Shown here piece after piece: positions 9,280-47,068 of a stretch of 64,000 nucleotides of DNA; positions within the stretch are counted from its first letter, which is position 1; each line of letters starts with the position of its first letter. Made by a program: the position numbers and the translations under genes. The notes under the pieces were generated by a model, which did not search any database, was not told where the DNA came from, and saw only the letters and a program-made list of their open reading frames with translations. Location of the stretch: the NCBI GenBank assembly GCA_025345505.1, contig JANVCC010000121.1, positions 192,350 to 256,349 on the forward strand. Direction: 5' to 3'. Source of the DNA: Todiramphus chloris collaris. Taxonomy: Eukaryota > Chordata > Aves > Coraciiformes > Alcedinidae.

Positions 9280-12200
9280 GTAAGTAAAATGTTTATCATT
9301 TAATAGAAAGAGCCTTTCTACTGATTCAAATGCATTTTTTCCCCGTTTGTCACAAAATAATGTAAAATTTCAATTATTTTGAAAGATACTATTCCTGTAC
9401 TTCTGAATGACAGCTACGGCTGGCTAGGAAATCTGGTGTTGAAAAAGGCCCAAAGAAACCATAAGCTGTTCTAATTATAGAGTGAGACTGATGATAGTAA
9501 GAAGCACTAATGGGACTCTGGACAGCTGGATGGGGAAATCTGATATGTAGGCTAAGGCTATTGCACAGGTCTTACCAAAGTAATGTTCCTTTCCATCCAG
9601 AAAGTTTTTCAAATACCTACTGTGAGCAGAGAATGCTTTGATTTTCTTTCTTTTCAGTTTATACTCAAAGAACAAAATTGTCATCCACTTTCAGTGCTGG
9701 AAATCTAAACCAAATCAACAGGGGTTTGCTCTGAATTTATAACAAGGGCAGGAATTTAATCCGGAGAGTTCATGTTACAGAAGTGAATGGATCTTTGGTT
9801 TTTAAAAATAAAACAATGAAAGAGTCAGATATTCTGTCTGAAACGTAGAAAACAGTTAAAATAAATACTCTGAAGTGATACTTTCCACATACTTGCATAT
9901 TTTATGCTGCTGGGGGGAGGGAAATCAGCTGGGGAAATTGGTATAGTTGTACAGACTGATCTGATGTGCCGCCAGTTTTTGTAAGTGGGAGAATTAGATT
10001 ATTCTATTTCCACATAGTAAAGACTCAAGATGCATAAATACCTATGTATAAGTATTAAATCATGAATAATCTTACTATCACTGAATTTACTGATTTGAAG
10101 GTGTGTAGCAAATTGCACAAAAAAGAAATAATTATGACAAATAAACACAAGCTTTTTCCAGTTCCACATGCTTTTCTTCATCTATATTATTCAGGCCGAA
10201 AGTTCAGTCTCACCACTGAAATGTCTTATACAGTTAAAAATTACAGAATTCTTCTTCCTGAAAAACATCTGTGCATTTCTCTTTTTTCATAGTATGTAAA
10301 ATTCCAATCACATTTTCGCAGCACGTAATGTCTTATGATAGGGAATGCCCCCCCCCGTTGAAATTAACCCACTGAGGATTCCTTGGCACTATGTATTACT
10401 GTGGTTTCAGTGGCCCCAGGTGAAATTCTTTATCTGCTGCCTCAAAGCAGCTTAATTCAAGTTCCTAAAAGCCAGTTGTGCCAGCTGTGTGGTATTCCAC
10501 ACTGTACGGAGAGACCGGAGGCTGCAAATTTGCGGTGTGTCACTCAAGAACTAGTCTCTGTTCAGTGTTCAGCCAGCACCCTCAGCCCAAGGTGCTGGGT
10601 AACTCCTGATTTACAGAGCCCCTGTCTATGGCCTGCTGAATGCCAGTGATGGTGGTGAAGTCCTGCTGGAACTGGCAGATTCAGAAGGATTCCAGGGCAT
10701 AAGCAAAATACTTAATGTTAATGCTGATACCCCAGGAAGAATGGCATGTGGTGTTGGTGTATTTCTGGAGCTTTTTTTTTCCGCTGCTGATTGGATAGAC
10801 TGTTCATCCTGCCATTATTTTGGGTTTGCTCATGTCAGAACAGCCTGTATTCGTAAAATTTGAGAGATGCATCGTTTGACCTTCCTGACATAAATTTACA
10901 TCACTTCTAGATAATTCTGAATTTTATTGTACAAAAAGGTGAGAAGCAGAACTGACACAGAACTTCCAAATCATTGAGTAATCCAGTTGTGTACAGAAGG
11001 TATTTTGTCTGGCACTTAATACCTCTGCTTTTTTAGATTCCAGGGTAGCCATAATTGCAAGGACTGCACCGGTCAATGAAGCCGTTTGTTTGTTGGGCTA
11101 CTGGCCCTGTTTGCCATGTTAAGGCAGCAGCTATCTGCTGTTGTGTGCGGTGTCCTAGAAGCTTACCTGTGGAATGGAGACCTGTGACTTAGAGTGTTCT
11201 GTTGCTGGGCCGCTCTTTAGTTTAGAGCTCCTTGCTCTGAAGTTAGTAGTGGAATGTAGGTGCTAGTCATGTGCCCTGCACTCCAACTGTGTCGTGAAGG
11301 AAAGGGCGTGAGCTGGGAGCAATTTAGCAAAAGATGTGGGAAAAGGGTGGAAATGTAAGAAGGGAGGAAGGAGCTGGGCTACACAACAAAGGAAGAACAA
11401 ATGGAAACTCTTTGAAAGGATTACCAAAGACTGCAACAGGCTGCCCAGGGCAGTGGTTGAATCACCATCCCTGGATGTATTCAAAAGCTGTCTAGATACG
11501 GTACTTAAGGGTACGGTGTAGTAGTGGCACGGGTAGAGTTAGATAACGTTTGGACTTGATGATCTTAATGGTCTTTTCCAATTGTAGTGATTCTGTGAAA
11601 GGGTGTCAGAACAGTTCTGATAGGTTAACTGTGCCAGGGAGGAGTTAGACTGAAATCCAGCAGATGGTTTCACATAGGCCAATAAACAGCTCTTGGACTG
11701 GAATGGGTTTAATGGTTCACTTTGAATATGACTTATGTTCTAAAACAACAGTAAGAATTACTGTGCCTGCCCAGCACATCATTTTAAATCAGCTTATAGT
11801 TGATTCATTTTTGATTCAAATGGTTTTAAAGTACAACTCTGCCTCGTCTCATTTGAGTGAATAGTTGGTGGGGGAAAAAAAGGAAGATTTTCTGTTTATC
11901 TGAGCTCAAAATCTAGTCAGTTATAATTTCTTATGAGACAGAGATCCTTGCCTCTTGGTGCAGCTTGCCACCACTCACGAGACTTTTGCTGGAATTTTGA
12001 AAAAATTGTTCACTGAAGTCTGTTTCCTGTGACAAAAGCATGGACCCCTGACAGCTGTGCATGGCCAGCCTACTGCTCTGTGGTCAGAGAACTCCCTTTC
12101 TGTCTTTCTAGTTCTTACTTCACTTCCTCTTTTTCTGCCTCTTCAGCAGGAATAGCCAGATGCTAGCAAGAGTGTGTCTGTCAGTAAGCATCTGCAGGAT

Positions 12201-15200
12201 AAAATACTGGTTTTCATAGGAAAACGGTTTGTATTGGAAGGCACCTTAAAGATCATCTAGTTCCAAGCCCCCTGCCATGAGCAGGGATACCTCCCACTAC
12301 AGCAGGTTCCTCAAAGCCCTGTCCAGCCTGGCCTTGAACACATCCAGTGCTGGAGCATCCGCATGCCTGTCAGAAGCAGTTGAAATAACTACAGGTATGG
12401 AGGTATTTTAGCTCATCCAAGGCAGGTGTGCCATTTAAAGCAGAGTGGTATTTTTGGAAAGAGAAGTTTGGGTGGCATTGCACAAAACAGGGAAATTGAA
12501 AGACCCACTAAGCTACTGCTGGAGAACAGTGCAAACTAAAACCAGTTCCAAACATGGTGCATTTGAGGGAGCTCTAATCCAGAGGCAGTGATGTACTTAC
12601 TGTCTATTCTAGGGATGGTTTGTTACACTCCATTTGTACAAACAGAGGGACAGGAATGTCACATGGAGACTTTATTTACAGGGTGGATTACCTTGCTAAA
12701 CTATTTCCTTTTAAAAAACATTGAGAAACCATGAGGTGAAATTAATCATCTAATTTCAGAGATGAGCTTCTTGCTTCCATTAACAGAAATAGTTTAGCTG
12801 ATCAGGTGAGAGACTGATGTGTAAATTGCCTCTACATTTTGTGGGGGAAAGAACCAGAATAGCTTAACTCATGCCAGCTGGGTTTATTTGCATGTAAATG
12901 TGACAGTTTGTCACTCACTTCAGAAACAAACTTTGCCAGCTGGGTGAAGATGGTCCATTTCTTGGGTATCGTAATGGGAGCAGAGGTTACAAAAGTGCTC
13001 CCTTAACTCCCCGTGGCCTTTCTTTGCTTTTCATTCAACTATTCCTGTCAGGCTTCAGTCACAATAGGTGCTTCCGTTCTTCTTTTACATAGTTACTACA
13101 TAACTGACTTACCTGCTTGTCCCTCCTTTATTCAGCATAACCAGGGCTTATAATGAAAGTACATGGGCTGTGTACTTCATGCAGGAGTTTAAATACAGAA
13201 CTGTGATTTCATCTTTGTGTCGTCAGGCACCAGGCAGATTGTTAAAGACGCAGGAATTGAACTTGCTTGTTCTACTGCATTCACATACTTAAATTCTCTA
13301 GTTTGTTACCATTCCTTTTTCACCCCTGGAGTTGAGCAGACTGTCCAGTAATTGAAGCAATGGTTAAAATGTATGGTGCTAAACCCTAGAAATCTTCTCT
13401 GAGAACAGGAAACAAAAACCAAAATCAAGATGAATAGTTCTATGACTGTGTTAGGTGACAAAAATCTAATCTAAGAGAATACCAGAGTTAAAGCCAGCAA
13501 GGTTTCTTAAAGTGTGTTTAAAGCATTTGGATGTAAGTATTTTCAACCAAAAATACCATGGAGCTGATTACTGCGTACCCTAGGAGCACATATCCCCGTT
13601 AAATATCAATTGAAAAATTAATGAACGTGCCACCTTGAGGCTTCAAATTGCATTCTGCTTTCTGACCTACTTTTGTCAAGTGCAAGGCAAGGCACTGCAT
13701 TACAAGCCCTCTTTTGTCATTTGTTTATCTTCCAGCCATCGAAATGTGTCTAGTCTCTACAGTGCTGCATGCCTATAAATGTCTATAAATGCCTGAGACA
13801 GAAAAGTGCCGATAGAAAGATAGATAGAAAGATAGATAGAAAGATAGATAGAAAGATAGATAGATAGAAAGATAGATAGATAGAAAGATAGATAGATAGA
13901 TAGATAGAAAGATAGATAGATAGAAAGATAGATAGATAGANNNNNNNNNNAGAAAGATAGATAGATAGAAAGATAGATAGATAGAAAGATAGATAGAAAG
14001 ATAGATAGAAAGATAGAAAGAAAGATAGAAAGAAAGATAGAAAGAAAGATAGAAAGAAAGATAGAAAGATAGATAGAAAGATAGAAAGATAGATAGAAAG
14101 AAAGATAGAAAGAAAGATAGATAGATAGAAAGAAAGAAAGATAGAAAGAAAGAAAGATAGAAAGAAAGAAAGAAAGAAAGATAGAAAGAAAGATAGAAAG
14201 AAAGATAGAAAGAAAGATAAAAGGGTTCTTGAAACTATCAGCCCCCTTTCCTGTGGATGTCTGAGAGCAGTCTGCTTTCAGTTTCATACCAGCAGCAGGC
14301 AGGGACTGACTTACTTAGCAAGAATGCCACAGGTTTTAGAAAAAGCTGTGACTGAGGCTGTTGTGACTGTAAGGGATAGAAAAATAAACTGCTTTCCAGG
14401 GTTTTGAGGAAATGGTAGGAGCACAAGGCTCAGAGCAAGTGCTCAAGATGGGACTGAGAACTGGAACCAACTGCAGAGACACATCCAGGCTCACATCCCC
14501 CTTGACTCAAGGTAGAAGGTGTGTGTCTAAACTCAAATACCTAGAGACTGGCATTTTCTCCTTCAGAGCAGCCTTGAGCAGGAGACCAAGGCATTGGGAG
14601 TCAGAGAGAACTGAAGCTGTGGAGCTGAGGTTCCTAGCTCAGGGTTTTTAGGTAAGTATGCACTGGCCAAGGATTTTTGAAGACAGTGTGGTGGCAGCTG
14701 CGTGGTGCTTGTGGTGGGAACAGCAGTGAAAGTCATTGACAAAAATTTTCTGTATCTCTTCCTTCCCCATTGTCCACAGCATGTAGTCAGCTCCACATCC
14801 TACTCAAGCTGAATGGAGAGACAGAAAGGATGAAAGGAGTTGCAGCTGAAGTGGGTGGCTTTTGCAGCAAAGGAAAACAATATTTACTACAGCCGGTAAT
14901 CCTTTTACCCTGAACTTATGGAAACTAAGAACCTACGGTCTAAGCAGCCCCTGTCTCTACTTGAGCACACAGCAACTCATGGGAAATCCTTCATTACATA
15001 CCCTTCACTAAGTAACAACACTTGGTTCTTTTCAGAATCACTTCTCTGAATAACATGTCTGGCAGCACTCATTACACATTTACAGCTCTGCTGGAACCCA
15101 GAGGACTCACCTGTTACGTGTCAGAGGTGTTCGTTTCAGCCATCCAGCACATCGTTGCAAGTTAACAAATAACTATGGTTGTAACTGGGACTCATGAGGG

Positions 15201-18200
15201 AAAAAAACAAAACCAACCCAGAGCAGTTATGAAGTTGAGTTTGTGGCTGGATAAAAACTAAAAAATGAGAACATTTACAAATACTGTTGGTTTTTAAACT
15301 CAATGTGATGGTTTTAAACATTTCTTCATTTCTGCTGGGAGTAGGTGCAGAGCTTCCGACAACCTCTAGAAAGATACAAGGTCAAATGTACAAACTAATT
15401 GACAAGGTCCATCCTGTTAATGGCTATTTGAAAGTAAATCTTTTTTTTTCAAAGGTTGACTGCTAAATTGCTCTCTGCTTGTACAGATTGTTCTGGCAAA
15501 TGAACAGTTACCAAAAGCATAATTTGTTTAGGAAACAATGTGGTTTTGTCTAGCAAAAAAACATAGGATCACCATGTATGGTTTGCTATGGGTGGGTGAA
15601 ACATGTTCACCACCTCCATGGAGTTGGTTTAGTGCTGAAGAGGACTCAAGAAAATCATGGAGAACAAAAGCTTGTTCCCAAGTCCCAATGGACTTGGGAA
15701 CAAGAATTTAAGGGTGGAAGCTCAATTCTGAGGGGAATGGTGAACAGTTTAACAGATTTTGTATGCCAGGCAGGTGGCAGCACTTTCTTCATCCCGTGCA
15801 AGGCCAAGTATCAACCAGTTGTTCTCTTTAATAAGGTCAGCATTCGTTACATTAATTAAGTTCAGTTTGGCTTAATTTAGGAACGGATTGTTTCTACATA
15901 AAGTGACTATTTGGAATATTTTGATATAGAAGAATAAAGGAGATGCAGGAGGAATATGCATTGTTATTTCCTGCCCCAATTTTCCCAGCAGTACCCCCAA
16001 GGTGGCAGTGCATGTCTCATTGCTAGAGGAGGGCTGAACGTGCCTTATTGTGAACTGAGCAATTTGTTAGCACCTGGACAGAGGTGAGGTCTGGAGTTGT
16101 CTCTGGCACTCCCTTTAGAAGAGGGACTTGTTGCCTCAAAGTGTCAGAGGCGACCAAAGATAACTTTTGAAGATGGCTTAATACTGACCCAGAGGTGTTA
16201 ATTTCTTGGTAGGAGTCTTGTTCTGAAGTGCATATTATGGCAGCCCTGGGGTGCGTTCTCCGAAACATTTAAAGACTGATACATAATAAGGAAGAATCTT
16301 TTTGAAACTTAAGATAACAATGGAAGCAAAGGGGAAGGCAGGCTCCTAAAAAACTAGAGTGAGTAGTTGCAGAAACTCATCAATTTGGATTGTGTAATAA
16401 TCCAAGTGTCCCATCTGTGATGGAACATTGTTAGCAAAAGGCATAGATATGGCTGGTTTACTCTCATTTGGTTTGGTTTATTTTGTTTTTCTTGTTTTTA
16501 TGTAGCTGGACTATATCAGTCATTGGTCATCATCCTGTTTAAATTTTATGTTTCTCAGCTTTTGGATCCAGATCTGAAACTCACCAGGGCTCAAGGCTGT
16601 TAAGATCCAGGAGTTTGATTTCAGTCCATTAGATTGATAGCTACAAGTCAGTACCTTGACTGTTGACAAATATTTAGACATACATAAATAAGCAATCGGG
16701 TACCTTTCAAGTCAGAACTCTAGTTCAAGCCTGTGCCAAGCAGCAGTTCTAATTTTTAACTACATTTATCTTTTTTTCTTCTTTGTAGGATCGAGGTGAT
16801 AATCTTAAAATCTTTACTCAGAATTCTGAGAGACTATGCATGGAGCCCAAAAAAGAAAAGGAAGGTAATTTTGTGGCTTGTGAGAGCATAGGAACCATCC
16901 ATCCAGCTTCAGAAATGCTCTGTATTGAAAAGACATTACAAGCAAAAAATGAAAATTTACAGACTTGTTTTCAGCACCGTGCTTCTTGTGATAAGGGGAA
17001 AAGTCACCAACAAATCTTCTCTGAACAAGGAATTAATATAATTAGTAATGGCAACAAATCAAAGAATGATGTTTCACCTTTTCCTTTATGGGATGCAAAC
17101 TCTGTTCCTGATAAACAAGAACACTTATGTGCTGTTCTTTCTTCTGCGAAGCTATGCGATGAGCCGAGGGAGGGAGGGCAAAGGTATAGTTTTGACTCAC
17201 ACGACAGCAACGGCACAGATGCTTTCTGCAGTCTGTCATGTGCTGAATCTCCATTTGAAGCTAATCTCAAGTCGATCCTGGAATCTGGAGAACCTGGGTG
17301 CACAGGAGATGCTGATATATCTGCAGCACATGACAAACTGCGGAAACTTCCTCATGAAGATAACTCAGATTGTCAAATCCCATTTGAAAACCAGGGGATC
17401 ACAAGTTCAGAAATTAGTCTGGCAGATATCAAAGTCATCGAACCAAACTTGGTACAGGGGACCTGTTCTCAGCATCTTTTCCCAATAAATGTGATAGAGG
17501 AGCAGGAACCCATTGCACAGCCTGTTAGTAGACAAAGAACAGACAAAGGAGACTGCAGTGTTTCTAATATCCTATTTAAAACAGATGAAGCGTGTGACAG
17601 TGCATCTATAGGAAACATTTGTCTTTCGCAAGTGGTAGAAGCAGATGGTATATGTGTAGATTCTAGCACTGGAAATAAAGTGGAAACACCATCCATTTGT
17701 GTCTCGGCAAATAGTATCAACTTAAATACAGGGGAGCGCTTGGAGCAGAAGCCAAATCAAATGTTAACTGACAGTAATGGCTCCATTCAAATGACTTCTG
17801 CCTGGAAGGGAAAGCTTGTCAGCAGTAATTCTTCCCAACCATGTGATGAGGTAAAAAATGCTCAGAGTGGTAATTTAGCGTGTGACACAGAAAACCCACC
17901 TTACATGTCAGATAAGTTGCACGGGACAATTGGACAATTACTTCATACTGAGCACGACATATCCTTGATAAATGAGTCAGTTACTGCTAAAGGGTGTCAT
18001 TTGAGAGACTATTATCCAGTAAGAAAAGAACTGGCCTATTTCCCTGAAGAGAAAGGCATTTCCCCCAATGAAAATACCAGTCAGTTTAAACACGAAGAAC
18101 ACTTTTCAGCTAATGCCATACATAAAAGTTATGAAGAGAATTCACAAGAAAAAGAAAATCACTCAGATTTGAATGCACAAAACGACACCAATTCTGACCG

Positions 18201-21200
18201 TTACCATCTTGCCAAAGATAATGACTGTCAAGATTTTCAAGTTGATTCTAGTGCACAGAAATACAGTTATGTAATGCCACTGTCAAATTTAGTTAAGACT
18301 CCTGAAACCATAACATGTAAGAATCTACCCCAAAATATACTGACAGTGCAACAGACAGAAATAGAAAACCAAGAAGTATCATTCCCTCCCTCTTCCGGGG
18401 ATCCGTTTTTAAGAGATTTTTATGTAGAAGTGCCCACATATGAACCATGTAAAACAGGAGAACAGAGAGAGAATTGCATAGGTGATGAACAAAGGGCTGA
18501 AACTTCCTGTGACTCAGGAGTTAGTCACGTTTCAGAGAGTGAGACCGCAGTTTTCCCTCATAATACCTCAGAACAACAAGCAGTTTCTGTTGATGGCACC
18601 ATCAAGTCCAATGAAGAGTTGAAAACAGATTCTTCAGAAAATCACACACGTGCATCCATCAGTGTAACCCCAGGTAGTGCTCCGCTGCCTGGAAAGGCTC
18701 AAAACGCGTCCCCCAGCATAGCACATGAGGGTGATGGAGATCACAGTGCTCAGTTAGCTACTCAACAACTGACCGTGGAAGAAACATTACCATTCTTCAT
18801 GCCTGTGAGCCAGTCAGAGAGCCTTCTTACCAGTGTATCAGCGATGGGGTGTCCTGGCACAGGAAGTCAAGTACAAACTGAATCCACCCAAGCTGCCGTC
18901 GAAGTAGGTGAAAATTTGAGTACTCTGGAAACTTCCTGCAAAGCAAAGCAGGAGCAGTTCCGAGGGGCACTGGAACAAAACAAGGAGGGGGCAGTCTTGT
19001 GTGAAAATAAACAAGAAATTCAAAGGGCTATCGGATATAACTCAGAAGAACCCAAAACAAAGTCTCCTTTGCACACTTTAATTAGCTCCGAGGCTCAGAG
19101 GCAGTTTGTGAATATTAGCACTAAGCAGTCCTGTCCTGACTTGATCTCCTCCAGCAAGCTAACTGAGGTGGATAATTCAGTTAAATCTACTGAGTATGAC
19201 AAAGCTGAAGAAGTCATGACATCAGAGAGCATAGTAAGCGGTTTAGTTAATGTGCCACCGGTTGATTCAGGGAATATCCAGTGTTTTCAAGAGCAACCAC
19301 CCTGCAGCAGAACTCAGCCATTCTCCTTAATGTTGACCACACAGGAGCCATTCCCAATCAATGCAGAAAAGCTAAAAAATCAAGAAGGGTCCAAGTCCTA
19401 CCAGACATCACCAACTGTTGCTGAGCCTGAGCCCATCAGATGTAAACAAGACACAGCAAAGAGTGGGCATTTAGCTGCTGGAGCTAAGAAGAAATTGCCA
19501 CCAGCAACACTGTCTAAGAAACCCCGACTGGAGGAGAGAGGAAGTGTCAGCAAGGATCCTAGCTGTGTTAAAAAGACGGTGAAGGGCGGGGCAGGCATGA
19601 TTCACAAGGAAGATAGAAAAGAGCAAAGAAAACTCATTTTGAAAAAGGACAGCAAAGGTAAGAGAAAACTGTTTCTCGTTTTTGTGCTTTCCTGTCGTTC
19701 TGGCTACAGCATGAAATTCAGATGTGTTAAACACGCTGACAGCCTCCTTTGAGTCTAAATCATGTCAGCTAAAGGTGTCCTACCCTCACTGATTTTAATG
19801 TCCACTTCTGTGACCTCAGTAACTAGTGCTGTGCCCGTGCCGCCGGGCTGAACCCTCTCTAACATCCTTTTCCTAGCTGGCAAACATACAAGTTAATGAA
19901 CTTCTAACCTGTTAGAAACAGTTACTTCTTCATTTGTCTCTTCAAGTAACTTTACAGGGATGTTCAGCATAATGGTACCACGTCACTACATGCAACGTAG
20001 CAACAGCAAGCCCAGTACTTGCGTCTTAGGTTCCTGCAGGGCTGTGTTCCATTTTATGCTTCTATGCTGTGGCTCCCAAATGCAAACACCCTTTCTTGGC
20101 TGCCAAATGAGAGTGTTACTTTTCCATTCACATTGGAAAAAACCCTGAACTTTTGTCAGTTTGAAGATGTGTCCTTTGCCAGAGAACCAAATGTGTGGGA
20201 GGAGAGACACATTCCTTCAAAGGAGAGCAAGCAGTCTGCAGTTCCTGAGAAATGCTTGTTCTTTTTCTATTTACCTGAGGCTATTCTTGAAAAATGTTCT
20301 AAACATTCAGGCTTGCATCAGATGTGCCTCTGATCTGCTTCAGCCTAAGCTGAAATGAATGTGTGTTTGTACTCTAGCGAACTGTGTGGTCCTTGGCCTG
20401 GCATTCTGGGAAGGTTGGTATGGTTAGGCTGGTATATACTCAGTGTTCTTTTTATATTATTTTCAGCTGCAGAGGGGCAACTATGTGGTTAGGTCAGGGA
20501 ATCTGGAGCTGTTCATTCTATTTATGGTTCTGTCACATACTATCTGCGTCATTTTAGCCCTGATTCAGCAGGGTTCTTGGGCATAAGGACTTAAGTGACT
20601 ACAAGTTAAACATAGCAATGAATTCCAGGTGCCTGATCCTTCGAGTTGGATCCAGCATTCCTTCAGCATTAGATGGGGAAAGTTAGACTGCAGGCATGGG
20701 ATTCCTGGGGGAGATGTGTCATGTAAGCTCATTCGGAGTGCAGCAGATCAGAACTTAACATGGTAGGAGACATGTCTTGCGTTTTACGTCCCTTACATCT
20801 AGCAGGGACGTCTCACTTGAATGCAGGGATGTGTCATGATCCCAAAATCTTTCCCTAAGTATATGTTGATACCATTTCTTTCCAGATGCCTTCCACCCTC
20901 CCACTCACATCATCCCCATGGGATGGAGTGTTGGGTGAGCCAGTAAACAAGTCTTAGCAGAGAACTAGGTTATTGGGACCTTCCCCAGACTGGGCGGAGT
21001 GCTCTCTTCCCATAACCTGAGTGATTCTTTGGTTTGTTCTGCACAATGGTCAGTGCTTAGCAAAAGAACCATGCCCTGTGGCTGGAAAGGAGGGACTTCT
21101 TTAGAGATGGGAAATGAATCCTTTGAAACTGAGGAGGGAAGCAAAGGCCACTGTCATTTCCAAGTGTGAATACCTAAGTACCAGCTGTGGCTTCCTCCCC

Positions 21201-24200
21201 CTAGCTGTGTTTTAAAGGGAATGGTGCCATCGCTGCACCTTGCTAAGAGTCTCATCCTGGCAGTCTGTCTTAGGTATGTTCAGGAACACCTTGGAGACTG
21301 AGCATCTCCCGTGACAGCCTTTTCTCTCAAAAGCTGTCAACAGTTTAAAAAAATCTGCTAGTTACAAGTATTCAGTTAATATGAACTCTCATGATGTAAG
21401 CGTATGGCGTGCTCTACCTTTGTGGTCTCTTTTTTACTGATAAAACCAGCTGGCCCTTTAGTCGGTAAGAATGTATTTTGATAAGAAATTGTTTGATGTC
21501 GAGGACTTTTCAAGCTAGAACTTCCCTTGGGTCCTGTCCTGGGTTCAGCTAGGATAGGGATAATTTTTCCCCAGAAGTTGGGAGGGGGCCTCAGCCAGGA
21601 TAGACAACAGAAGCAGAGGAAGGGTTGTTCCATACCACACCACACCATACATACCTGCTATATAAGGGCAGAGGGTGGCCAAGCAAAAGGGCCGTTCCTG
21701 GAGCTTCCGCTGTATCACCTGTTTTGTGTATTGTCTCATTACCGTTACTGTTGTTGTTACTTCTCCTTTTGTGTTGTATTAAATTCTCCTTTTCTCAGCC
21801 CCTGGGGTTTTGTACTTTTTCCCCTCTTCTCCTGCCTGTTTGGGCAGTGGGGGCCAGTGAGTGAGCAGCCAACTGGTGGTCAGCTCCCAGCTGGGTCTGA
21901 GCCGTGACAGGTCCTGTTCCATAAATTCAGAATGTCTTAGCACTGCAAACATTTACAGGGACTGTGTGGGGCACTGAATCAGTCTTTAAAAACCTCTGTA
22001 TTTTAACACCTTCTTTTCTGCATCAGAAGAAATCATATTTACCAGTGTTGTCAAATTCATGTTCCTAACATCTGCAGATTGTTCTGGGATTTCTTTAAAA
22101 TGACAAACCAATTATTATCATCTTCTGATCCTAAACTGTGGCTTTTCTGTTTCAAGCTCCCAAGCTGCTGAAGAAAATCCAAGCAGAGTTGTTCCCCGAC
22201 TGCTCTGGAAATATTAAGCTATGCTGTCAGTTCGGTGACATTCACAGCGACTCCACCATTACATGGACTAAAGATTCCAAGTTACTAGCTCGACTGCAGA
22301 GAAGGTGGGTGAATGTTTCTGAAGGACTGGTAGTTTCTGAGCAGCTTTGGGGAAAACAGGCCAGGGATTCACTCTTGTACCTGTTAAGAGGATTAGTGCG
22401 ATGGGTGCAAAAATGAAGTTAATATTACCCAAAGCAAAAAAAGAATATGTCTTTCCATCAGAATGCACAATTTTCCAAAAATGAACAAGTTCTGTAGGAA
22501 AACATCTTCTCAGATGTTTTTTTAAGCGGAGAGAAAAAGTTGCATGAATTGGTTAAACTTCCTGTGTCATTATGATTCTTGTTTTAACCAGTTATTGAAA
22601 TATTAATACATACAGCTACTAAATAATTTGCAGTTTTAGCAAGTAAACAGTGCAGAGATCAAATGTATCAGTTTTTGCAGTGATAGCAAGTAAAATATGT
22701 GATAAAATATTTTAACTTCGTAGGATAAATATATTTCAAAATATTGGAAGTATAGTGAAATATATAACAGAGATTTAGAGTAAGAGAGATTCCTAGTTAC
22801 AGTTTCTGCTTCAGAAATGTTCAGTGGAAATCTGTCATCTTCTCTGTGTATGAAGTTGAAGACACAATCAGAGGACAAGTATCAAGCTTGACAAAAACAA
22901 AGGAGCCACAGAAAGCTGAGTGAGGGGTCAATACTGAGGAACAGCATACAACATCTTTGGCTTTTGTGTTTTCATACTTCGTATATTTGGCCATGACATT
23001 TACAGGAATCTTAGACTGCCTTTTGGTGTGATTTAATTATTTTGGTGTTTGAGTGGAGGACTTTCCTCTCAGAATGTAGTAGGATCATCTGTTGTGAAAC
23101 ACATAATGGGCTGAATGCTTCTATTTGGTCTACTTACATCATATTTGAATCAGTCTTTGCGGTGAGGGATGGAAATTTCAGGGTCAGGAGGAGGGATATG
23201 TGAAATAATCAGGAAAGTTTGATTGAAACTATTAATGTGGAAAATTAACATATTCTATTCCAGTGCCCAGGATGACTCTCCCGTCTCTTTGGCAATAGCT
23301 AAGGCCAGTAACAAAGACCAGGGAATGTATTATTGCTGCTTGAGTAATATGCATGGAAAGGTGACTGCTGAGTTTAACCTGACCTCTGAAGGTAAATCCC
23401 AGTTTATAATTTTGATTAATAACAATGATAATGGCAGTTTCCATTTGTATTGGGTTTTACTACAAAAATCTCTTTTGTTTTCTTGTAGTACTGGAACATC
23501 TCTCAAGTTTTCAGGATCATCAAGGTAAGTAGACACCTCTGCTTGAATGTGTGCTCAGATCTTCGCTCCTTCTATTTCCAAATAGAACAAAGGATGGAAA
23601 ATAGAGCAAGACTGAGACGTGTGGCAGATATCCGTGGAAAACTATGGGAGTCCACTGAAGCCACTGTATCCGTATTGCGGTTTTGCTAGCTGTCTGCCCC
23701 TTTTTGCGCTCACCTTTGCTGCGCCATCAAAGATGAAATTCGCTTTAACTCTTGGGAGTTCTGTTGGTGAAATGCCCACATGTAGGATGGAGTGGTTTCT
23801 GCAGGGCGGTGGAGAACCCGCCGCGACAAACTGTTGTTTTGAACTTGACCGTGTAACCCCTCATTAGCCTGATGCACCAGCCCTTCTCCTCCACCGTGCA
23901 GTGAAACAGCATTGCACCGCATCACACGGAGACACAGTCCCACGCTGCCTGCTGAGAGTGCTTCTGGCAGGAAAACTTGCCAGTGGTGTTTGAACACATG
24001 GTCTTTGCAAGTCACTTGCTATGTAACTGTACTCTGTGAAGATCTGGAATGCTTTCCCCATATGTTAACTTGTGTTTAATCACATGCGACATATGACTTG
24101 CTGTGCTGCAGCTAAAGATAGACAGTGCATTGCAAATTGGTTTATCCTTTCTGAACACCCTGTACTAATCAAGTACTAGTTTTGGCCAGTTGGGTTTTCT

Positions 24201-27200
24201 TTCTTCTTCTAGAAGAATAAAATTAAACATTTAGTTCCTTGTTAAAATAAAGACAGGACTTGTCATGTAACAGCATGACAATTTTAGGTGGGGTTAAGGA
24301 GCCTTCTCATTCTGGCTTTATATGTGCACTGTTTCCTCTGTGCTTCAAAGAGAGGTGACAGTGGACAGAGTGTAAACCAGGGATAACTACGACAGGGAGC
24401 TGGGAGGACTTAATTGCTGTGTAGTATACATCTTCATCTTTTTTTCTCCTATTTATCCTTTTCACCGATGTTCCTTGAAATATTATGGTTAGAGAGACCT
24501 GAAGTGCAGTTAGAGTTTCTTTTAGTTTCTCTCAGCGCTTAACCTTCCCCCACTCCCCGCCCCCCCCCCCCCCCTTTTTTTTTTTCCATTTGTATTCCAG
24601 TGGTCATTACAAAGGGTAAAGTCCCTAATCCTGCTTGATTTCTCCTGTAACAAACTTAGGCTCACGTTGTTAAGCTACTGGTACCTTCAGAATCCACAGG
24701 TGGGGGGATAAGAGAAATATCATTGTACCAATTTCTCCTGAATATAAAGATCACTACAGTTCATGTATTTACTTTTTGATGGAAACATTTCTAGAAGTGT
24801 GGCTCAAAATCACTTGTGAAATGCAAACCTTGTTATTTCCTTCTGCCTTTGCTACTGAACCTGTTTATAAGCTGAAAAGAAACACTTTAGCGTGCCAGCC
24901 TGCAGCACTGGAGCTGCTGTAGGCAGTGGGGTTGGTACTAGGAAAGGCATCATGGTCATACTGGGTAAGGACTGAGACCTCTTTCAGATGAGGTCCTCTA
25001 TGATCATGTTGGCAGAACCCTTCCCAGAAAACATTCCAGGCTAAAAGCTAAAGCAAGCTCTGGCTGAAGCAGCAACATCTGGCTTTTCTGAAAACGCAGG
25101 CTGGCTTCAGGAGAATATACTCTGAGCTCACTGGGCACAGAACTCTGTTCTACTTCTAAATTAGTATCTATTAGTATCTAGTGTTCTCTCTGTGCCTCTT
25201 TAGTTCTCTGTCAGCTTGACCACATTCATTTGAAGTTCCAGTTTACAACTCCTCTCATAGTTTTAAAAACAACCTTTGTGATCTTTACCTGTATTTTTTG
25301 TTTGCTACACTCTGTATTCTCTGCCACCTTTCTCCACTCTGGCTTGGGTCCCAACCCCATATTAGCACGAGTTAGGCCATGCGTTCTCTTTCCACGGAGC
25401 GTTTTCTTTAATGGTTTATGGAGGTGCATTCCTTCTCCCATGTTCACCCCTTTCCCTGGGACTGCAGAAGGATGTTGTGCAGAACAAGTGGCATTGTTTT
25501 TTAGGTGTGGAAGAAATTGAATTCATGCAGCTGATGTTCAGAGAAGATTTCATCAGCGACAGCTATTTTGGTGGGAACCTGCATGGAATCATAGCTACAG
25601 ATGAGGTTCACTTTGGTGAAGGCATGCACCGGAAAGCCTTCCGGAGTAAAGTGATGCAAGGCCTCGTGCCCATGTTCAGTCCTGGCCACCCCTGTGTTCT
25701 CAAAGTGCACAGTGCTATCATGTATGGGACCAAGAGTAAGGATGATCTAGTTCAAAAGAACTACAAGCTGGCACTGCAGGTAAGCTTGCGCTGTCCTTCG
25801 CGAGCAAGAATCATGGGGAAAAGCTGTCTTGCAAATATTCAAACAGACGATCAGTTAAATGTTTTGAGTAATATTCCACAGGCATATCTGTTTGTAACGC
25901 AGGAGTGCTATGTCCAAAATACTGCAAGAGAGTACGCAAAGATATATGCAGCTGAAGCTGAACCCTTGGAAGGCTTTGGGGAAGTACCAGAGTGAGTATA
26001 TATATATATTTATATACATATACACATCTGTGCATATATATTGTTCCATGCCACAGCTGGCCACTGATTGCTAGGAGTAGTTACTAAAGAAGAAGAAAGA
26101 GGAATCCTGAGAACAGTGTTACAGCTGGCATCAGGACCTAACTAATGCTGAGTGTGAAGGTGGTGAGCTAGAGATTCCATTCCCATTAGAGAAGGATAAT
26201 AAGGAGTATTTTGCCTGCAAACAGCAGGCAAAAGGCAGGACTTTGATACAAATTTAGAGGAATTTATTCCTATGAGAACATGAAATTACTCAGTAATACG
26301 ATAAATTACTCCTTCATTGACAGAACTCGCTGGATTTTATTTGTTTTTATCCGTTGATTTCAGGATTATTCCTGTTTTTCTTGTTCATCGCCCTGCTAAT
26401 AACATCCCTTATGCGACAGTGGAGGAGGAGCTGGTTGGGGAGTTTGTGAAATACTCTGTCAGGGATGGCAAGGAAGTAAATTTCCTGAGAAGGGACTCAG
26501 AGGCTGGCCAGAAGTGTTGCACCTTCCAGCACTGGGTGTATGAGAAGACCAATGGAAACTTGCTTGTCACTGACCTGCAAGGTGAGTGGGGGCAATGGCT
26601 TTCCCTCCATGCAGGCTGGTGACCGCTTGCGGTCAGTCCCCGTCACCACAGAACTTCCGGAGACTTAGTTTGGAGAAATTGCACTCTGGCTTGCGCGTGC
26701 CGTTGGCAGTGCTGCCTGTGCTCCTTCTGTAACCTTAGAATGGGCAGAGTCATCTCCGGATGCAGACAGTGCCCTGGCCCTGCGCCCGTTTGACACAGCA
26801 TCTCGCGCAGAGCAGAATAAAAGATAGGATAGACAGTTAGGGTACTTCCTTTCCTAGCCTCTTTTAAGTGTGCTGTGTTTATTTGCGCGTGTGTTACCCG
26901 AGGGAACAGAAAGACATTAATTGCCTACTGTGGCAGCAGGGTCTAACATTATTAACTTATGCAGTATTATGATGTTTATCTAATCAGCAGAGAAAGGGAG
27001 CATTCACCTAGAGCGTGAAAACAGTTTGGAAAAGCAAACCCAAAATCTTACACTCTTAACAGGAAAATTGGTCTTCCACGAGTCCCCTTAGTAAAAAAGG
27101 ATGCTCAGTGTGAGTCAAGTCTGGCTTGTTGTCTCGCCTCTCCGAGGTGAATGAAATGTGTTGTGAATTAAAGGTGTCAGTTGTTAATAGCATCCTCGTT

Positions 27201-30200
27201 CTTCGCTACTACTTGTATTTAAATACTTGACAAGTACCTCTCAACAGTGGAATGCTCCACATTTGGGTCCTGATTAGGTTTGAAGTAACATGTTCCTTCA
27301 AAAAAAAAAGCAGAATTATGCAGGAATTCCCTTCTTGCCTTTAGTAAAAGCTGCCCTTGGGCTCCTGTGTGGGCATGACTCCTGACTGCTGAAATTCTGT
27401 CCCTGTACCCCCCCACCCCCAGTATGCACAGATCTGGTTGAAACGGGGAAAGACAGACCTTTGTTAAAGAAAATCAGGAAAAGGTGGAATCTTCGAAAAT
27501 ATCCCATGTTTTTTAGCAAGAGAAGGTAGGAAAATTAGCAACAAGACATCTAAACAAGACCCCTGAAGTAATTTAAGGGGAGAAGAACGAACAAAATCGT
27601 AGCCTGAGGGAAGCACAACAGCAGAAGTGATATCTGAGCCTCTGTAATGGTTGCTGCCACAAAGGAGAATAGACTGCTGTTGTTGAAGAGAAATATTCTT
27701 CCTCCCTGATTTGAGTGTCTAGGCTGCATTTTTCAGGCCTACCAGTTGAGATTTCTGAGGGTATTTCCCAAGGAAAATAGTCTGAAAGCCATCATTTTCC
27801 TGTACAGAAAAAACTGCACGCGGCAGAACAGGATTTTGGCTATAAAAAGTCAACAAAGGAATAGATTTAAAACCGCGAAGTTTTTGTAAATACTGAATGA
27901 GAAGGAGATTTGGGATCTCTCACCCAAAATAGGAGTTTGACTGGCCTATTGCTATTTGATTGGCAAAGCAAATATGCAGTTCCTGCTGATAAACACTGTA
28001 GTCCAAGTTTACAAAGGATCGAAACCACAAAACCCATAAATATACACATCTCGGGGCAGGTGTGTGAGCCAAGATTTTGTATGTTTCTTAAAATGCTGTC
28101 ATTGAAGTGTAATCCTTCCTCCCCCCCACTGGCTGTCTAGCGCAGGAGAGAAGGTATGACTTACAGAAACTGCTAGTGATACAGAGCACAGACACCTATT
28201 TTTAATCGGGGTACCTTAAAATATTTGGAAAAAATAATGACAAATAACTAAAAAATGTGAGTCAATAAATAATACTTAATGCCTCTGTATACGGTGCTTC
28301 TGAATCTGAAGATATTCCTAGAAATTCTAGTCTAACATAAGCTCTCTGTTTCCCTGGTGCCTTGCAGGTGTAGGAATGAAGTTAACTGACGTTGGCATAG
28401 CAACGCTGGCCAAAGGGTGAGCGAAACATGATTTCTCAACAGCGTGGTTTTGCATTACGTATCAGTCTCTTCACGGTGTAAATGTGTTGGGGGAGGGTGC
28501 ACTGGAAATTTATTCTTGCTTTAACTGGGGAAGAAAACAGTCCTCAACTGACTCTTTTAACTTATTTTTATTCATACTTACGGGAAACTGCCCATAAGGG
28601 AAACACATTTATTTTGTCCTAATAGGATGGGGGCTTTGCTTTTTCCTCATGCCTCCCTTAAAATAGGCTTATTCAAAGGACATTTCATGAGTGAAATCAA
28701 GGCCTCTGGTGACTTACAAGCAAAGTTCTTGACTTGGTGGTCTATCAACTGCAGGAAGGTAAGGCTGCAAGTGCAGGGCCAACATCGGCTCCAGCCTGGG
28801 ATACCTGATAAAAAAGGAAATGTGTTAAGGGACTTGATGGTAAGCCATTCCCTTCTCTCTCAAAATCAGTAATTCTGATCTCTAACAAAATATCTCTTCG
28901 GAATATTTTTTTTTAAAATGAGGCCTGTTTTCCTAGTTTTGCTGTGGCTTCTGGTCTTTTGGGACATGTAAGCGTGTGCACAAAGATACAGGACTTTAAT
29001 GTTCTAACTTTATTCCACTTCTCTTAAGGTTTGGTTAATTAAATCTTCCAGTTATAGCACAGGTCAAAAGAGCCATTGATAGGAACAGGCACTGGAGGCA
29101 GCCATGCCAACCTGCTGGCTGCTGTAAGGGAAAGGGCATCGGGGTAAATGTCTGTCACCAATGCTTTAAATTCATTCTCTCCTTTGAGAAGGTGTCAGGA
29201 AAAGGGAGATCTGATCACATGTATTCAGTCATTACACTAAACTGAGGCTTGTCTAGATACCCTCACAATACCTTAAAAATGATTGAAAAATCAAGCCTGG
29301 AATATTCTGGGAAAATCCTCAACATTTGCAGGCTGGCATCTTTTCAAAACTTAGACTGATTTACTCTCTTGGCTGTGGATCCAAAGTGAAATCAGTTGAA
29401 ATGAAGTTGCGTCATCCTGTTAAAAAACAACACATAAAAAATGTATTTAGGCAACACTGTTCCCTGGAATCAGGAGGATTATAGAAATGCTTTAATGGAT
29501 GTTGTCCAGCTCAGTATGGGAAATTCCTCCTATAAAACGACATGTTGGACTAGGGAAGAAGAAGGTGAGTGAGAAAATGAATATGCAGTGCAAGCTGTAG
29601 TAAGGATCATGTCAGTCTCTTACAAGGAAATACCATTTCCCTTCATGAAAAACCTCTTAAAAATGTTGAGTATTATTTTGTTAGTCATTTAGATGATGAT
29701 ATTGCTACAAGGCAACAGATTTTTCGCAGTCCTGTATTTTTTATTTGTGCTCCTTTCCCAGAAAGGACATGTCTGCATTAATATCTGCAGTTTGAGTTTT
29801 GATTCTGCGAGCCTGGATGGAGGGATCAAACACGTACACAGAATTCATAATTATTTCTGTTGCTGCTTTTGGTAGTGTGCAGCCATGCTGATGAGAGGTT
29901 GTCTGTTTCACATGTTGGGGAGAACATACATTGTCCTACTGAAGTGAAGAATACAGTATGCTCATGTTACAATTTTAACGGCACCCTTAGAGAAGATACA
30001 AAGTTGATAGTTTGGTGTAATTGCCTATGGAAATTCCCAGTTTCCTCAACCACTCTGCAGAGGTAATGACCTCACCGATCACAGACAGTTCCTCTGCCTC
30101 CAGTTCTTCTAAGTCTGGGCCAATCGCTCCGGACAAACCAAAATTATCCTTGGGAAATGCTTCTGCGGTCTGTGACGAATGAAAGAACGTTCATATTGTC

Positions 30201-33200: not shown

Positions 33201-33790
33201 CCTAAATACTTATGATGAGATAGCTGAACTCCAAAGATAAAGTCAGCAGACAGTTACGTTCCCGTCTAAATGAAATGAAAAATAGTAGTCAGGACACAGA
33301 CCACAGAACTATGCCTCTTTAACCCTTTTCCCTCTTCTGTTACTATGTATTACCTGGTTCCCTTCACCTCTCAATGGGTCAGTTCGATTTTCTGTGACAA
33401 GATTTAGTGCTTCTCAAAACAGCATGGGTTGGTAAGAAGAGACTTGCTTAACGTTTTCAACTTGCTTATGAGTCAACCATCATACTCTGCCTCCCTGTAC
33501 TGAAAATGAATCTTGAAATCCCTTTTGGCTTTCTTTTTTTTCTTTGTTGCTACAGATACAAAGGTTTTAAAGGCAACTGCTCAATTTCCTTCATTGAGCA
33601 GTTCAGAGCCCTCCACCAGTGCAATAAGTACTGTGAGATGCTGGGGCTGAAATCTCTCCGAACCACTCATCAAAAACAGAGGAAAGCAACATCCATGAAA
33701 AGCAAAAATCTACCGAACTCATCAACCATAAAGAAAACAGTGCCCAAGAAAGCAAGAGAACCTAGAGACTTCATTTCTTCAGAGCACTGA
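7906..33790 (+). CDS. ALPK2: ALPK2, alpha-kinase 2 (heart alpha-protein kinase), ten coding exons
   Basis: ALPK2 is an atypical (alpha-kinase family) Ser/Thr protein kinase, enriched in heart and linked in other vertebrates to WNT signalling during cardiac development. Joining the ten exons listed separately gives 5,421 nt with stop, an exact multiple of three coding 1,806 residues; every junction has GT-AG ends and matching phase. Residues 1-1414 are low-complexity, Ser/Glu/Asp rich and probably disordered. An Ig domain spans about 1415-1507 (Cys1438, Trp1451, Tyr1486-x-Cys1488). The alpha-kinase domain spans about 1519-1770, with Lys1585 in VLKV, the DLQG motif at Asp1710, LTD at Asp1720, and a zinc-type set His1696, His1749, Cys1751, Cys1755. 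I chose ATG 7906 because it is the first in-frame Met and has A at -3 and G at +4. Human ALPK2 is longer (about 2,170 residues) and starts with another Ig domain, so the true N terminus may lie upstream. Confidence 0.95.
11385..11598 (+). repeat. CR1 LINE 3' end, truncated
   Basis: It contains the CR1 tail landmarks 'caacaggctgcccagggcag', 'tcaccatccctggatgtatt', 'ttggacttgatgatctta' and the terminal 'gattctgtga' unit. Only the 3' end is present, as usual for avian CR1 copies. Several diverged positions suggest an old insertion. Confidence 0.9.
12221..12362 (-). repeat. CR1 LINE fragment, antisense
   Basis: It reads as the reverse complement of the CR1 3' region: 'attggaaggcaccttaaaga', 'tcatctagttccaagccccc', 'tgagcagggatacctcccac', 'cctggccttgaacacatcca'. 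It ends abruptly, so it is a 5'-truncated piece. Confidence 0.9.
13811..14219. repeat. GATA/GAAA tetranucleotide microsatellite array
   Basis: About 400 bp of mixed GATA and GAAA units: mostly (GATA)1-5 separated by single GAAA at the left, and GAAA-rich towards the right. It is interrupted by ten N. One frame on the complementary strand stays open because the repeat reads as Phe-Leu-Ser-Ile; that is an artefact, not a gene. Confidence 0.97.
13941..13950. other. Assembly gap (10 N) inside the tetranucleotide array
   Basis: Ten N are flanked on both sides by the same GATA/GAAA repeat, so array length is not resolved by this assembly. Confidence 0.99.
15671..15704. repeat. Perfect inverted repeat, 15-bp arms and 4-nt loop
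   Basis: Left arm CTTGTTCCCAAGTCC, loop CAAT, right arm GGACTTGGGAACAAG; every arm position is complementary. It lies in an ALPK2 intron with no obvious transposon around it. Confidence 0.95.
16789..19657 (+). CDS. ALPK2: ALPK2 giant central exon (2,869 nt)
   Basis: The exon begins in phase 0 after TTTGTAG and ends in phase 1 at AAAG|GTAAGA. It codes residues 459-1414, with no recognisable fold, many Ser, Glu, Gln and Asn residues, and scattered Cys. Its C-terminal part turns basic ([13 protein letters not shown], then a Lys-rich stretch) just before the Ig domain, as in human ALPK2 where I recall a similar HLAEGVKKK sequence. The open frame continues into the intron to 19752, but that extension is not coding. 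The matching human exon is larger, so this region has changed length a great deal. Confidence 0.93.
19658..22156 (+). other. ALPK2 intron, 2.5 kb, holding a solo LTR
   Basis: GTAAGA donor and TTTCAAG acceptor. Apart from the LTR at 21535-21909, no gene or other repeat was recognised. Confidence 0.85.
21535..21909 (+). mobile_element. Solo LTR of an avian ERVL-type endogenous retrovirus
   Basis: A 375-bp unit begins TGTCCTGGGTTCAGC and ends GAGCCGTGACA, flanked on both sides by the same 5-bp GGTCC (21530-21534 and 21910-21914), which is a target-site duplication. It has a TATA-like ctatataagg near 21658 and a poly(A)-like attaaa near 21779. No internal retroviral genes are nearby, so it is a fossil left by recombination between two LTRs. 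Family assignment rests on the terminal sequence and 5-bp duplication. The intact duplication suggests it is not among the oldest copies. Confidence 0.85.
22157..22304 (+). CDS. ALPK2: ALPK2 exon: first half of the Ig domain
   Basis: Phase 1 acceptor TTTCAAG, donor AAG|GTGGGT in phase 2, 148 nt. It begins [14 protein letters not shown] and contains the B-strand Cys (LCCQF) and C-strand Trp (TITWTKD) of an I-set-like Ig domain. The equivalent human segment, as I recall it, differs at only a minority of positions. Confidence 0.95.
22305..23263 (+). other. ALPK2 intron splitting the Ig domain
   Basis: GTGGGT donor, TTCCAG acceptor, 959 bp, AT-rich. No repeat or RNA gene was recognised. Confidence 0.9.
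23264..23391 (+). CDS. ALPK2: ALPK2 exon: second half of the Ig domain
   Basis: 128 nt between TTCCAG and GAAG|GTAAAT, phase 2 to phase 1. It holds the F-strand signature KDQGMYYCC and the G-strand GKVTAEFNL, completing the Ig domain begun in the previous exon. Confidence 0.95.
23489..23524 (+). CDS. ALPK2: ALPK2 36-nt micro-exon
   Basis: The exon lies between TTTTCTTGTAG and CAAG|GTAAGT, phase 1 on both sides, and codes about 12 residues ([12 protein letters not shown]) linking the Ig domain to the kinase domain. Human ALPK2 has a linker of the same length (VLKQLSSRQDTK, from memory). The symmetrical phase means it could be skipped without a frameshift. Confidence 0.9.
23525..25504 (+). other. 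ALPK2 intron, 2.0 kb, between micro-exon and kinase domain
   Basis: GTAAGT donor, TTTTTTAG acceptor. It contains a C15T11 tract at 24560-24585; nothing else was recognised. Confidence 0.9.
24560..24585. repeat. Poly-C then poly-T tract (C15 T11)
   Basis: A homopolymer run of 15 C followed directly by 11 T. The length may be inaccurate because such tracts are prone to sequencing error. Confidence 0.95.
25505..25779 (+). CDS. ALPK2: ALPK2 exon: N lobe of the alpha-kinase domain
   Basis: 275 nt, phase 1 acceptor TTTTTTAG and phase 0 donor CAG|GTAAGC. Coding starts GVEEIEF and includes DSYFGG, the [15 protein letters not shown] strand-loop-strand region and the VLKV lysine (residue 1585), the expected nucleotide-binding lysine of the N lobe. 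Confidence 0.96.
25780..25902 (+). other. 123-bp intron that is open in frame within the kinase domain
   Basis: GTAAGC donor and ACGCAG acceptor, phase 0 on both sides, length divisible by three and no in-frame stop. Retention would add 41 residues between Gln1610 and Glu1611. It lacks a strong polypyrimidine tract. Confidence 0.85.
25903..25991 (+). CDS. ALPK2: ALPK2 exon: alpha-kinase domain, helical segment
   Basis: 89 nt from acceptor AACGCAG (phase 0) to CCAGA|GTGAGT (phase 2). It codes [20 protein letters not shown] and GFGEVPE, nearly identical to human ALPK2. The preceding intron is only 123 bp. A TA-rich microsatellite begins directly after the donor. Confidence 0.96.
25992..26363 (+). 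other. ALPK2 intron with TA-rich microsatellite
   Basis: 372 bp. A (TA)n-like tract with interruptions covers about 25997-26042, directly after the splice donor. Acceptor TGATTTCAG. Confidence 0.85.
26364..26581 (+). CDS. ALPK2: ALPK2 exon: catalytic core of the alpha-kinase domain
   Basis: 218 nt from TTTCAG (phase 2) to CAAG|GTGAGT (phase 1). It codes the [10 protein letters not shown] strand, [18 protein letters not shown] and the FQHWVYEKT...VTDLQG catalytic stretch. His1696 is a probable zinc ligand and Asp1710 a probable catalytic residue, by analogy with TRPM7-type alpha-kinases. Confidence 0.96.
26582..28367 (+). other. ALPK2 intron, 1.8 kb
   Basis: GTGAGT donor and CCTTGCAG acceptor. 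No repeat, RNA gene or extra exon was recognised. Confidence 0.85.
28368..28416 (+). CDS. ALPK2: ALPK2 short exon with the LTD motif
   Basis: 49 nt from CCTTGCAG (phase 1) to AAAGG|GTGAGC (phase 2). It codes [16 protein letters not shown], which completes DLQG-VG and supplies Asp1720 of the LTD motif (usually LTDP in alpha-kinases; ALPK2 has LTDV). I recall the human residues as identical. Confidence 0.95.
28417..33555 (+). other. ALPK2 intron, 5.1 kb, before the last exon
   Basis: GTGAGC donor and GCTACAG acceptor. About 30.7-31.7 kb has more CpG than its surroundings and may be an unrecognised inserted element. No coding exon was seen. Confidence 0.8.
33556..33790 (+). CDS. ALPK2: ALPK2 last coding exon: zinc-binding end of the kinase and C-terminal tail
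   Basis: The acceptor is TTGCTACAG, phase 2. The exon codes YKGFKGNCS and the HQCNKYC motif (His1749, Cys1751, Cys1755), the zinc-site signature of alpha-kinases, then a Lys/Ser-rich tail that diverges from human. TGA is at 33788-33790. It follows a 5.1-kb intron, the second largest after the 7.5-kb one at 9280. Confidence 0.95.
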
Positions 33791-40674: not shown

Positions 40675-40680
40675 TTTATT
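40675..40680 (-). terminator. Poly(A) signal downstream of the MIR122 hairpin
   Basis: AATAAA on the - strand, about 62 nt past the hairpin, followed on that strand by a GT-containing stretch (ctttgtacatgtatgtc). It is well placed to be the 3' end signal of pri-miR-122, which in mammals ends close to the hairpin. A function here is inference. Confidence 0.5.
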
Positions 40681-40741
40681 CCTCAGCAGAGCGGGAAACG
40701 TACTGCCATAGTTCACATACGTTTCTGAATTGATGTCTTGT

Positions 40742-40824
40742 CTACCCGTAGCTATTTAGTGTGATAATGGCGTTTGATAGATTGGACACAAACACCATTG
40801 TCACACTCCACAGCTCTGGTAGTA
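40742..40824 (-). ncRNA. MIR122: MIR122 precursor hairpin (miR-122)
   Basis: Read on the - strand, the 5' arm carries TGGAGTGTGACAATGGTGTT plus TG (40810-40789), the complete mature miR-122-5p, and the 3' arm carries AACGCCATTATCACACTAAA plus TA (40774-40753), the miR-122-3p. The loop is tgtccaatctatca. The lower stem pairs CUACC-AG with CGGGUAG. Compared with the human hairpin as I recall it, one G-C pair has become C-G, so pairing is kept by paired changes, with one A-G mismatch. miR-122 is the dominant liver microRNA, acting in lipid metabolism and hepatocyte identity. Its place 3' of ALPK2 and on the opposite strand matches the human locus. It is transcribed as an intergenic pri-miRNA whose promoter should lie at higher coordinates here. 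Confidence 0.98.
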
Positions 40825-42888
40825 GATCATGGAAGAAGTAACATACACGCCTTACAGACTTCAGCATGGGGGCTTCAAAGATCTGCAAAACACAGAGAAA
40901 AGACCACGTTTATGCATATTTGCATGTGAATACATCAGGATTCTCAGCAAGGAAGTGGGAGACAGGATTTGGAATTTCTTTGAGGTGAAAACGTTGTCTC
41001 TACTAGCTGTGGTAATCTGAAAGCCAAGTGGCGTTAAGCGTGCCCTTACAAAGGAGATGGACAGGTACCAGAGAATGAATCATTCTCTGCATCTTTCTCT
41101 AACCGATGGAGACAGCTCAGAATAAGCACCAGATGTCTTTAGAGCTATGTTAGAGCTGAGGAATTGTGGTGTTAAAGATTGTATTTGTCTTCCGTATGCT
41201 TCTTTCTACCAGCATTTTAGAGCTAACCCACTGACGAGACGGCAAGTTGGTCTGTGATCCTAGTTCTGCTCTTCCCCTGTTCTATTCAGTGCAAGTTCTT
41301 CTCTGACACACCAGCACCTGTGTCACAGGGAATTGAGCAGTGTAACTAACGTACACCTGACTCTGGTGTTTCACTTCTCCGCAGGACAGGTTTTTTGGTG
41401 TAATAGGACAGTGTGTTTCTGTGCTTTTTAGCCTGTGAATCTAATAACGTTTCTGCACATTCTCAGTAAGTATTAAAAGATCATGTAAAAGATTCTGTTC
41501 GTTAGGAGTGGACTAAGAGCACACAAACAGTAACTGAGGGTCACGGTGCTTTATAAAGCCGTGGAAATTCAGTGGTGTGTCATCGTAACATCTGATTACT
41601 GCAGAGAAGACAGAGAAAGAGGAGCACAAGGAAGGGAGGAGGTTAGAAACCAGAGCTTTGGTGCACAGTAGTAGCTTTTGGATCTTACTCTTCCACGTGT
41701 CCACTTTTTCCTCAGTGGCAACTAGCGTGATCATCTGTGTAAGATCGCGCTAGATATTAACTGGAAGAATGCTGATCTGTGCAGATAGACTGTAGTTTTG
41801 TGAAAGTGCAAGCCAGCTGGTGAATGTTCATTAATAGGAGTAACAAAATAATACTGGTAACTAAGTGATGACTGTAATGAAGTGTGCTAACTTAACAAAA
41901 GGTGGAAAAAAATAAAAGAGACAGACCGCAGGGCGGAATTCCTTTATTCCCCTGGAAGTGGTAAAAGTCTTTCCAGGAGAGCTGAATAATTAAATATTAA
42001 TGTTTCATTCTGTGTGAATTTGAGTAGATTTTGTATGTGCTGAGTACCACAATATTTCCTGTAGCTACTGAAAACATGAACTTTCTGACTCAGAAAAGAG
42101 TGCTGTATGGACTGGTCAGAAGCACCGTGGGAGGGGACACAGTTGTCCTTTGTACCAAGACATGAGGATGGAATGTCTTTCTATAATGCTTTTAAACTAT
42201 CTGTCTCATTGGTTTTTTAAGCTCAGTTAATGAATTCCCGTTTTTATGTACCTGGGAGCATTTGCTACCCATACTTAATAAAACCAGACTCTCTAGTATA
42301 GTCTTCTGGATCTGGCTGCATTTTAGCAAAAGGCTGTTAGGCAAGTGAAAGCATTCTGAAGGCAGACTCTCAGATCCTCTGAGAACTCCTCTGGTGTGCT
42401 TAGCCTTTCCATCAATCCCACTTTTTACCTTTCCTAATTCCCTGCCCTGGTGATGCATCACTCCCACACATTAACAGCCTCGACGCCTCAGCTTTATTTC
42501 CAGTCCGCTGTCAGCATTCCCATCATGCATTCCAGCTGAGAAATGAGAGAGCCACAAACCTGTATCATCAGCTGTTTGTGAAACCTAAATGTTCAGACTG
42601 TGAGTTCTGAATGTGGCACAGCTATGGAGTAAAATCACACTTCTGTGCTTGTCGAGACCAAGCAGTCACCGCTTTAAATATCAGCTTTTGTATGGAGAAG
42701 CCCTCACCAGATTGAATCGGGGCATGCTGCAGTTTGTGGGAGGAGCAGCTCTGTGTGCCCCAAAATAAGAGGTTGTGTAGGGGCAACTACCACCAGGTCT
42801 GCTGAAGCCCTGGAGCCTGCGGGGAGCAGAATGTGGCTCTCTGAGGGAAATGAGTTGTGCGTTTGAAGGCACACGTAGAACTGTCAGG

Positions 42889-42910
42889 CAGATCTGCAGA
42901 TCTGCAGATC
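42889..42910. repeat. Tandem cagatctg repeat, 2.75 copies
   Basis: An 8-bp unit repeated perfectly; each unit is palindromic apart from the outer bases and contains AGATCT. Confidence 0.9.
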
Positions 42911-45779: not shown

Positions 45780-45835
45780 AACACTTTAATTAGCACAAAG
45801 CACAAATTCATAATGCTAACAGGTGACCTTTAGTA
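45780..45835 (-). promoter_or_regulatory. Candidate MIR122 promoter or enhancer cluster (speculative)
   Basis: On the - strand this stretch contains ctaaaggtcacctg (an AGGTCA nuclear-receptor half site), tgctaattaaagtg and gtgtttaacaaaac (FOX/HNF1-like). It lies about 5 kb upstream of the hairpin, near the distance I recall for the human liver promoter controlled by HNF4A, FOXA and HNF1. Half sites are common by chance. Confidence 0.2.
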
Positions 45836-47009: not shown

Positions 47010-47068
47010 GAGGACCGAGTCCTGTGACCTCCAAAGGTACCTTCCAACCTAAATGATTCTGTGATTCC
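47010..47068 (+). repeat. CR1 LINE extreme 3' end
   Basis: About 60 bp carrying the CR1 end 'ggtaccttccaacctaaatg' and 'attctgtgattc'; the rest is truncated. Confidence 0.85.

Follow-up and report, generated by a model that had tools for sequence, protein, structure and literature searches.

Whether a short hairpin in the DNA of Todiramphus chloris collaris is the working MIR122 gene of this bird, and from where it would be transcribed, is the question raised by a stretch of 64,000 nucleotides, referred to here as the window. A reading made from the letters of the sequence alone, called the sequence-only reading below, had placed an intact MIR122 hairpin beyond the end of ALPK2 and had assigned the liver primary transcript with its control elements to the seemingly empty region on the right. 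In the following, the hairpin itself, its copy number, its neighbours and its possible transcription are considered in turn.

Identity and fold of the hairpin

Three features define the locus:

40742..40824, minus strand, pri-miR-122 hairpin with lower stem
40789..40810, minus strand, mature miR-122-5p, matching human and zebra finch (as printed in PMC3585881) at 22/22 positions
40753..40774, minus strand, mature miR-122-3p, 22/22 identical to human (hairpin in PMC2976731)

The Rfam family mir-122 (RF00684, gathering score 70 bits) matched the minus strand from 40818 to 40746 over its full length (model positions 1-73 of 73) with 100.3 bits and an E value of 3.9e-21, and no other match in the 64 kb reached its gathering score when 4227 RNA families were searched. 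The full-length match bears out an intact MIR122 hairpin at 40742..40824, and its coordinates had been given correctly. No tRNA was found by ARAGORN. The 83 nt fold into one strong stem-loop that contains both arms, with -40.2 kcal/mol; the mean of 200 shuffles was -17.1 (z -8.0), and none of them folded as well.

The opposite, plus strand folds as well (-35.3 kcal/mol, z -6.2). This would fit a functional product from the plus strand, comparable to the antisense hairpin miR-3591 in human, but since any hairpin is symmetrical, a good fold of its other strand is to be expected, and the plus-strand match of 61.2 bits lies below the cut-off of 70. A product of this kind is therefore considered highly improbable, and the minus-strand hairpin is the one followed here.

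Comparison with the human hairpin

The letters of the human reference hairpin are contained in an oligonucleotide printed in PMC2976731. In an ungapped comparison, 76 of 85 positions were the same in human and bird, and all 44 mature positions were unchanged, so that both mature arms are complete, as had been claimed from the sequence. The seed of miR-122-5p is intact, and exact matches to miR-122-5p and miR-122-3p occur once each in the window. The nine changes comprise two in the terminal loop, one at an unpaired end base and six in the lower stem, where they affect four pairs. One of these pairs was altered on both sides, from G-C in human to C-G in the bird, which agrees with the paired change noted in the sequence-only reading, and another went from U-G to C-G. 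The remaining two pairs were lost (A-U to A-G and C-G to A-A). The stem is thus retained, as had been proposed, but its base is weaker, and the two lost pairs had gone unmentioned.

Copy number in the assembly

In the assembly from which the window comes (1,173,753,469 bases in 889 contigs), one locus exceeded the mir-122 family cut-off, with 60 of 188,052 first-look candidates scored. A second row of this search is the plus-strand match mentioned above, which is this locus read from the opposite strand with a shift of one base. Another locus that is the true MIR122 had been named as the finding that would overturn the assignment, and among the 60 scored candidates none was found over the cut-off.

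The loss of two lower-stem pairs could also be read as the mark of a silent or decaying copy, with the working gene elsewhere in the genome. Against this stand the unchanged mature positions, the compensated stem pair, the conserved neighbours ALPK2 and NEDD4L and the lack of a second locus over the cut-off among the scored candidates, and we give such decay hardly any weight compared with a single, intact gene.

Neighbouring genes and synteny

On the left of the hairpin, ALPK2 is encoded on the plus strand:

7903..28417, plus strand, further exons of ALPK2, spliced, with alpha-kinase and I-set domain pieces, from tblastn with Pterocles ALPK2, Pfam PF02816 and PF07679, and homologues of a 987-aa exon
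33557..33790, plus strand, last ALPK2 coding exon and stop, from tblastn with Haemorhous mexicanus ALPK2 (91% over 77 aa, 33557-33787), followed by TGA

When two ALPK2 proteins from birds were compared with the window, each aligned along the plus strand, starting at about 7.9 kb. The exon at 33557-33787 was reached by the Haemorhous protein alone (one of the two used), and the Pterocles protein ends at 28361-28417. In the Pfam search, the frames 25366-25995 and 26305-26622 each gave an alpha-kinase piece, and the frame 23223-23528 gave an I-set piece. The 987-aa exon (16789-19752) had 29 homologues at E <= 0.001, and all 17 with a named organism were from birds. The TGA after the last exon lies about 7.0 kb from the hairpin, which agrees with the 7 kb given in the sequence-only reading, and the opposite orientation of hairpin and ALPK2 holds likewise.

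Two other observations were made in this part of the window. Among birds, the large ALPK2 exon changes rapidly: its top homologue is 72% identical and three parrot proteins reach 48-50% over 59-67% of the exon. Further to the left, about 410 bases (13811-14223) form a tandem array of the GATA/GAAA type, which contains an N run at 13941-13950, one of two 10-base N runs in the window.

On the right, the same contig carries three HECT-domain pieces in minus-strand orientation, 4-7 kb beyond the right end of the window. Two of the HECT exons were translated and scored 152.7-154.1 bits with NEDD4-like PDB chains versus at most 137.5 bits with NEDD4. The final NEDD4L codons, placed with the C-terminus of NEDD4L, end at window coordinate 66,596 and are followed by TAA. 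This stop lies 2.6 kb past the window end, from which we infer that the right end of the window may hold the NEDD4L 3' UTR. The distance from the end of NEDD4L, on the minus strand, to the hairpin is about 26 kb.

The gene order is thus ALPK2 (plus), MIR122 (minus) and NEDD4L (minus), and NEDD4L and ALPK2 also flank MIR122 in human and Mir122hg in mouse. As neighbours of mouse Mir122hg, Nedd4l, Alpk2 and Malt1 are named (PMC9722683), in agreement with the arrangement found here. That the hairpin fixes the synteny of the window, as proposed earlier, is supported by the genes on both sides and by these mouse neighbours.

Signals flanking the hairpin

Three short signals were noted next to the hairpin:

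40732..40735, minus strand, CNNC motif starting 18 nt past the 3p end
40883..40902, minus strand, pyrimidine tract with TTTTGCAG at its end, a candidate 3' splice site; the base that follows it stands 72 nt ahead of miR-122-5p
40675..40680, minus strand, AATAAA (exact match), candidate poly(A) signal 73 nt past the 3p end

The motif scan found CNNC at +2 and +18, and a CNNC at such a position is known to aid Drosha cutting. A UG at -14 of the hairpin is absent, and the flank of human MIR122 is likewise without it.

The other two signals could mean that the hairpin lies in a very short last exon, which would open at a 3' splice site located 72 nt ahead of miR-122-5p and have its poly(A) signal 73 nt past the 3p end. 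Splicing, Drosha cutting and polyadenylation would then compete within about 210 nt. On a simple home-made score the candidate 3' splice site reached 14, and 29 minus-strand AG sites in the window (0.6%) scored as high, four of them, the candidate included, in 40811-50000. AATAAA occurs 50 times on the minus strand of the window. At such densities, chance alone would place a splice-like site within 72 nt in about 3% of cases and an AATAAA within 73 nt in about 5-6%. Since neither place was chosen beforehand, the pair is treated as a lead only, and the AATAAA count lowered our already small expectation of a short last exon a little further, leaving this arrangement improbable. In the excerpt of PMC11347158, the distance from the human 3' splice site to the hairpin was not found.

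Transcription and control elements

As the hairpin lies on the minus strand, any transcript that contains it has to come in from the right. The pri-miR-122 of human cells was described as a long non-coding RNA with a single intron, which measures about 4.8 kb before and 1.9 kb after splicing and is ended by Microprocessor cleavage (PMC11347158). A start analogous to the human one would fall near 45-46 kb. In mouse, the most abundant form of Mir122hg has one exon, and raising or silencing Mir122hg left miR-122 levels unchanged (PMC9722683); for these reasons the mammalian host transcript is no simple model.

Liver-factor motifs were searched from the hairpin to NEDD4L (40825-66596) with consensus sequences and strict thresholds, and counts were compared with 20 first-order random resamples. 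No excess of strict motifs over random sequence was found in this interval: DR1 occurred once (at 64833, beyond the window) with 0.9 expected, the HNF4-specific motif was not found with 0.5 expected, HNF1 had four matches (at two palindromic places) with 3.1 expected, FOXA three with 2.1 expected and C/EBP one with 0.9 expected. For HNF6, 1,895 matches with 1,818 expected show that the scan was too loose to be informative. A CpG island was not present across 26 windows of 1 kb (CpG observed/expected 0.13-0.59). The scan neither shows nor excludes a promoter, and none can be claimed. Also on the right, an open reading frame at 54145-54480 had no Pfam match but looks like the last part of a reverse transcriptase from a CR1-type LINE.

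Of the statement that the right side must hold the liver pri-miR-122 and its control elements, the direction of transcription stands, whereas the transcript with its control elements is a reasonable analogy with mammals, not a result. Among the literature matches listed, no study of an avian miR-122 promoter or of avian synteny was recognised, which is not proof of absence, and the excerpts of PMC4547435 (FXR site), PMC4761921 and PMC9636255 that deal with miR-122 have no bearing on the bird locus.

The hairpin might instead derive from a NEDD4L read-through transcript without a promoter of its own, as NEDD4L lies upstream on the same strand and no liver-factor motif excess was seen in between. 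A separate miR-122 promoter has, however, been described in human and mouse (PMC10416984; PMC11347158), and mouse Mir122hg is liver-enriched, whereas Nedd4l is expressed in several organs (PMC9722683). Read-through is thus judged very unlikely, although somewhat less so than a decaying copy or a plus-strand product.

A single, intact MIR122 gene in a bird

The locus is almost certainly the single, intact MIR122 gene of a bird, because the full-length Rfam match, arms identical to human, the stable fold, the sole locus found over the cut-off among the scored candidates, the CNNC at +18, the neighbours ALPK2 and NEDD4L and the miR-122 of zebra finch (PMC3585881) all agree. Points against this explanation are the two lower-stem pairs lost compared with human, the missing UG at -14, the lack of a strict liver-factor motif excess upstream and the host transcript of mammals, which is not simple.

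In zebra finch, the mature sequence printed in a table of modified reads is identical to that of the window, and the Z chromosome alone encodes miR-122 (PMC3585881). In the liver of chicken embryos, gga-miR-122-5p heads a list of the ten known miRNAs of highest abundance (PMC12609791). Given the unchanged mature arms and the findings in mammals and these two birds, this animal probably transcribes and processes its miR-122, and expresses it in liver, in a similar way. RNA polymerase II would enter from the right on the minus strand and make a long non-coding primary transcript, from which Drosha/DGCR8 would excise the hairpin; Dicer would then produce the duplex, and miR-122-5p would be loaded into Argonaute in liver cells.

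The assignment is an ordinary, correct annotation of an intact bird miR-122, already known and strongly conserved, and holds no surprise. If the short last exon were real, it would offer a natural test of the interplay of splicing and Microprocessor on pri-miR-122. MIR122 serves mainly as an anchor that fixes the identity of the window, and it shows here how strongly miR-122 is conserved between bird and human.
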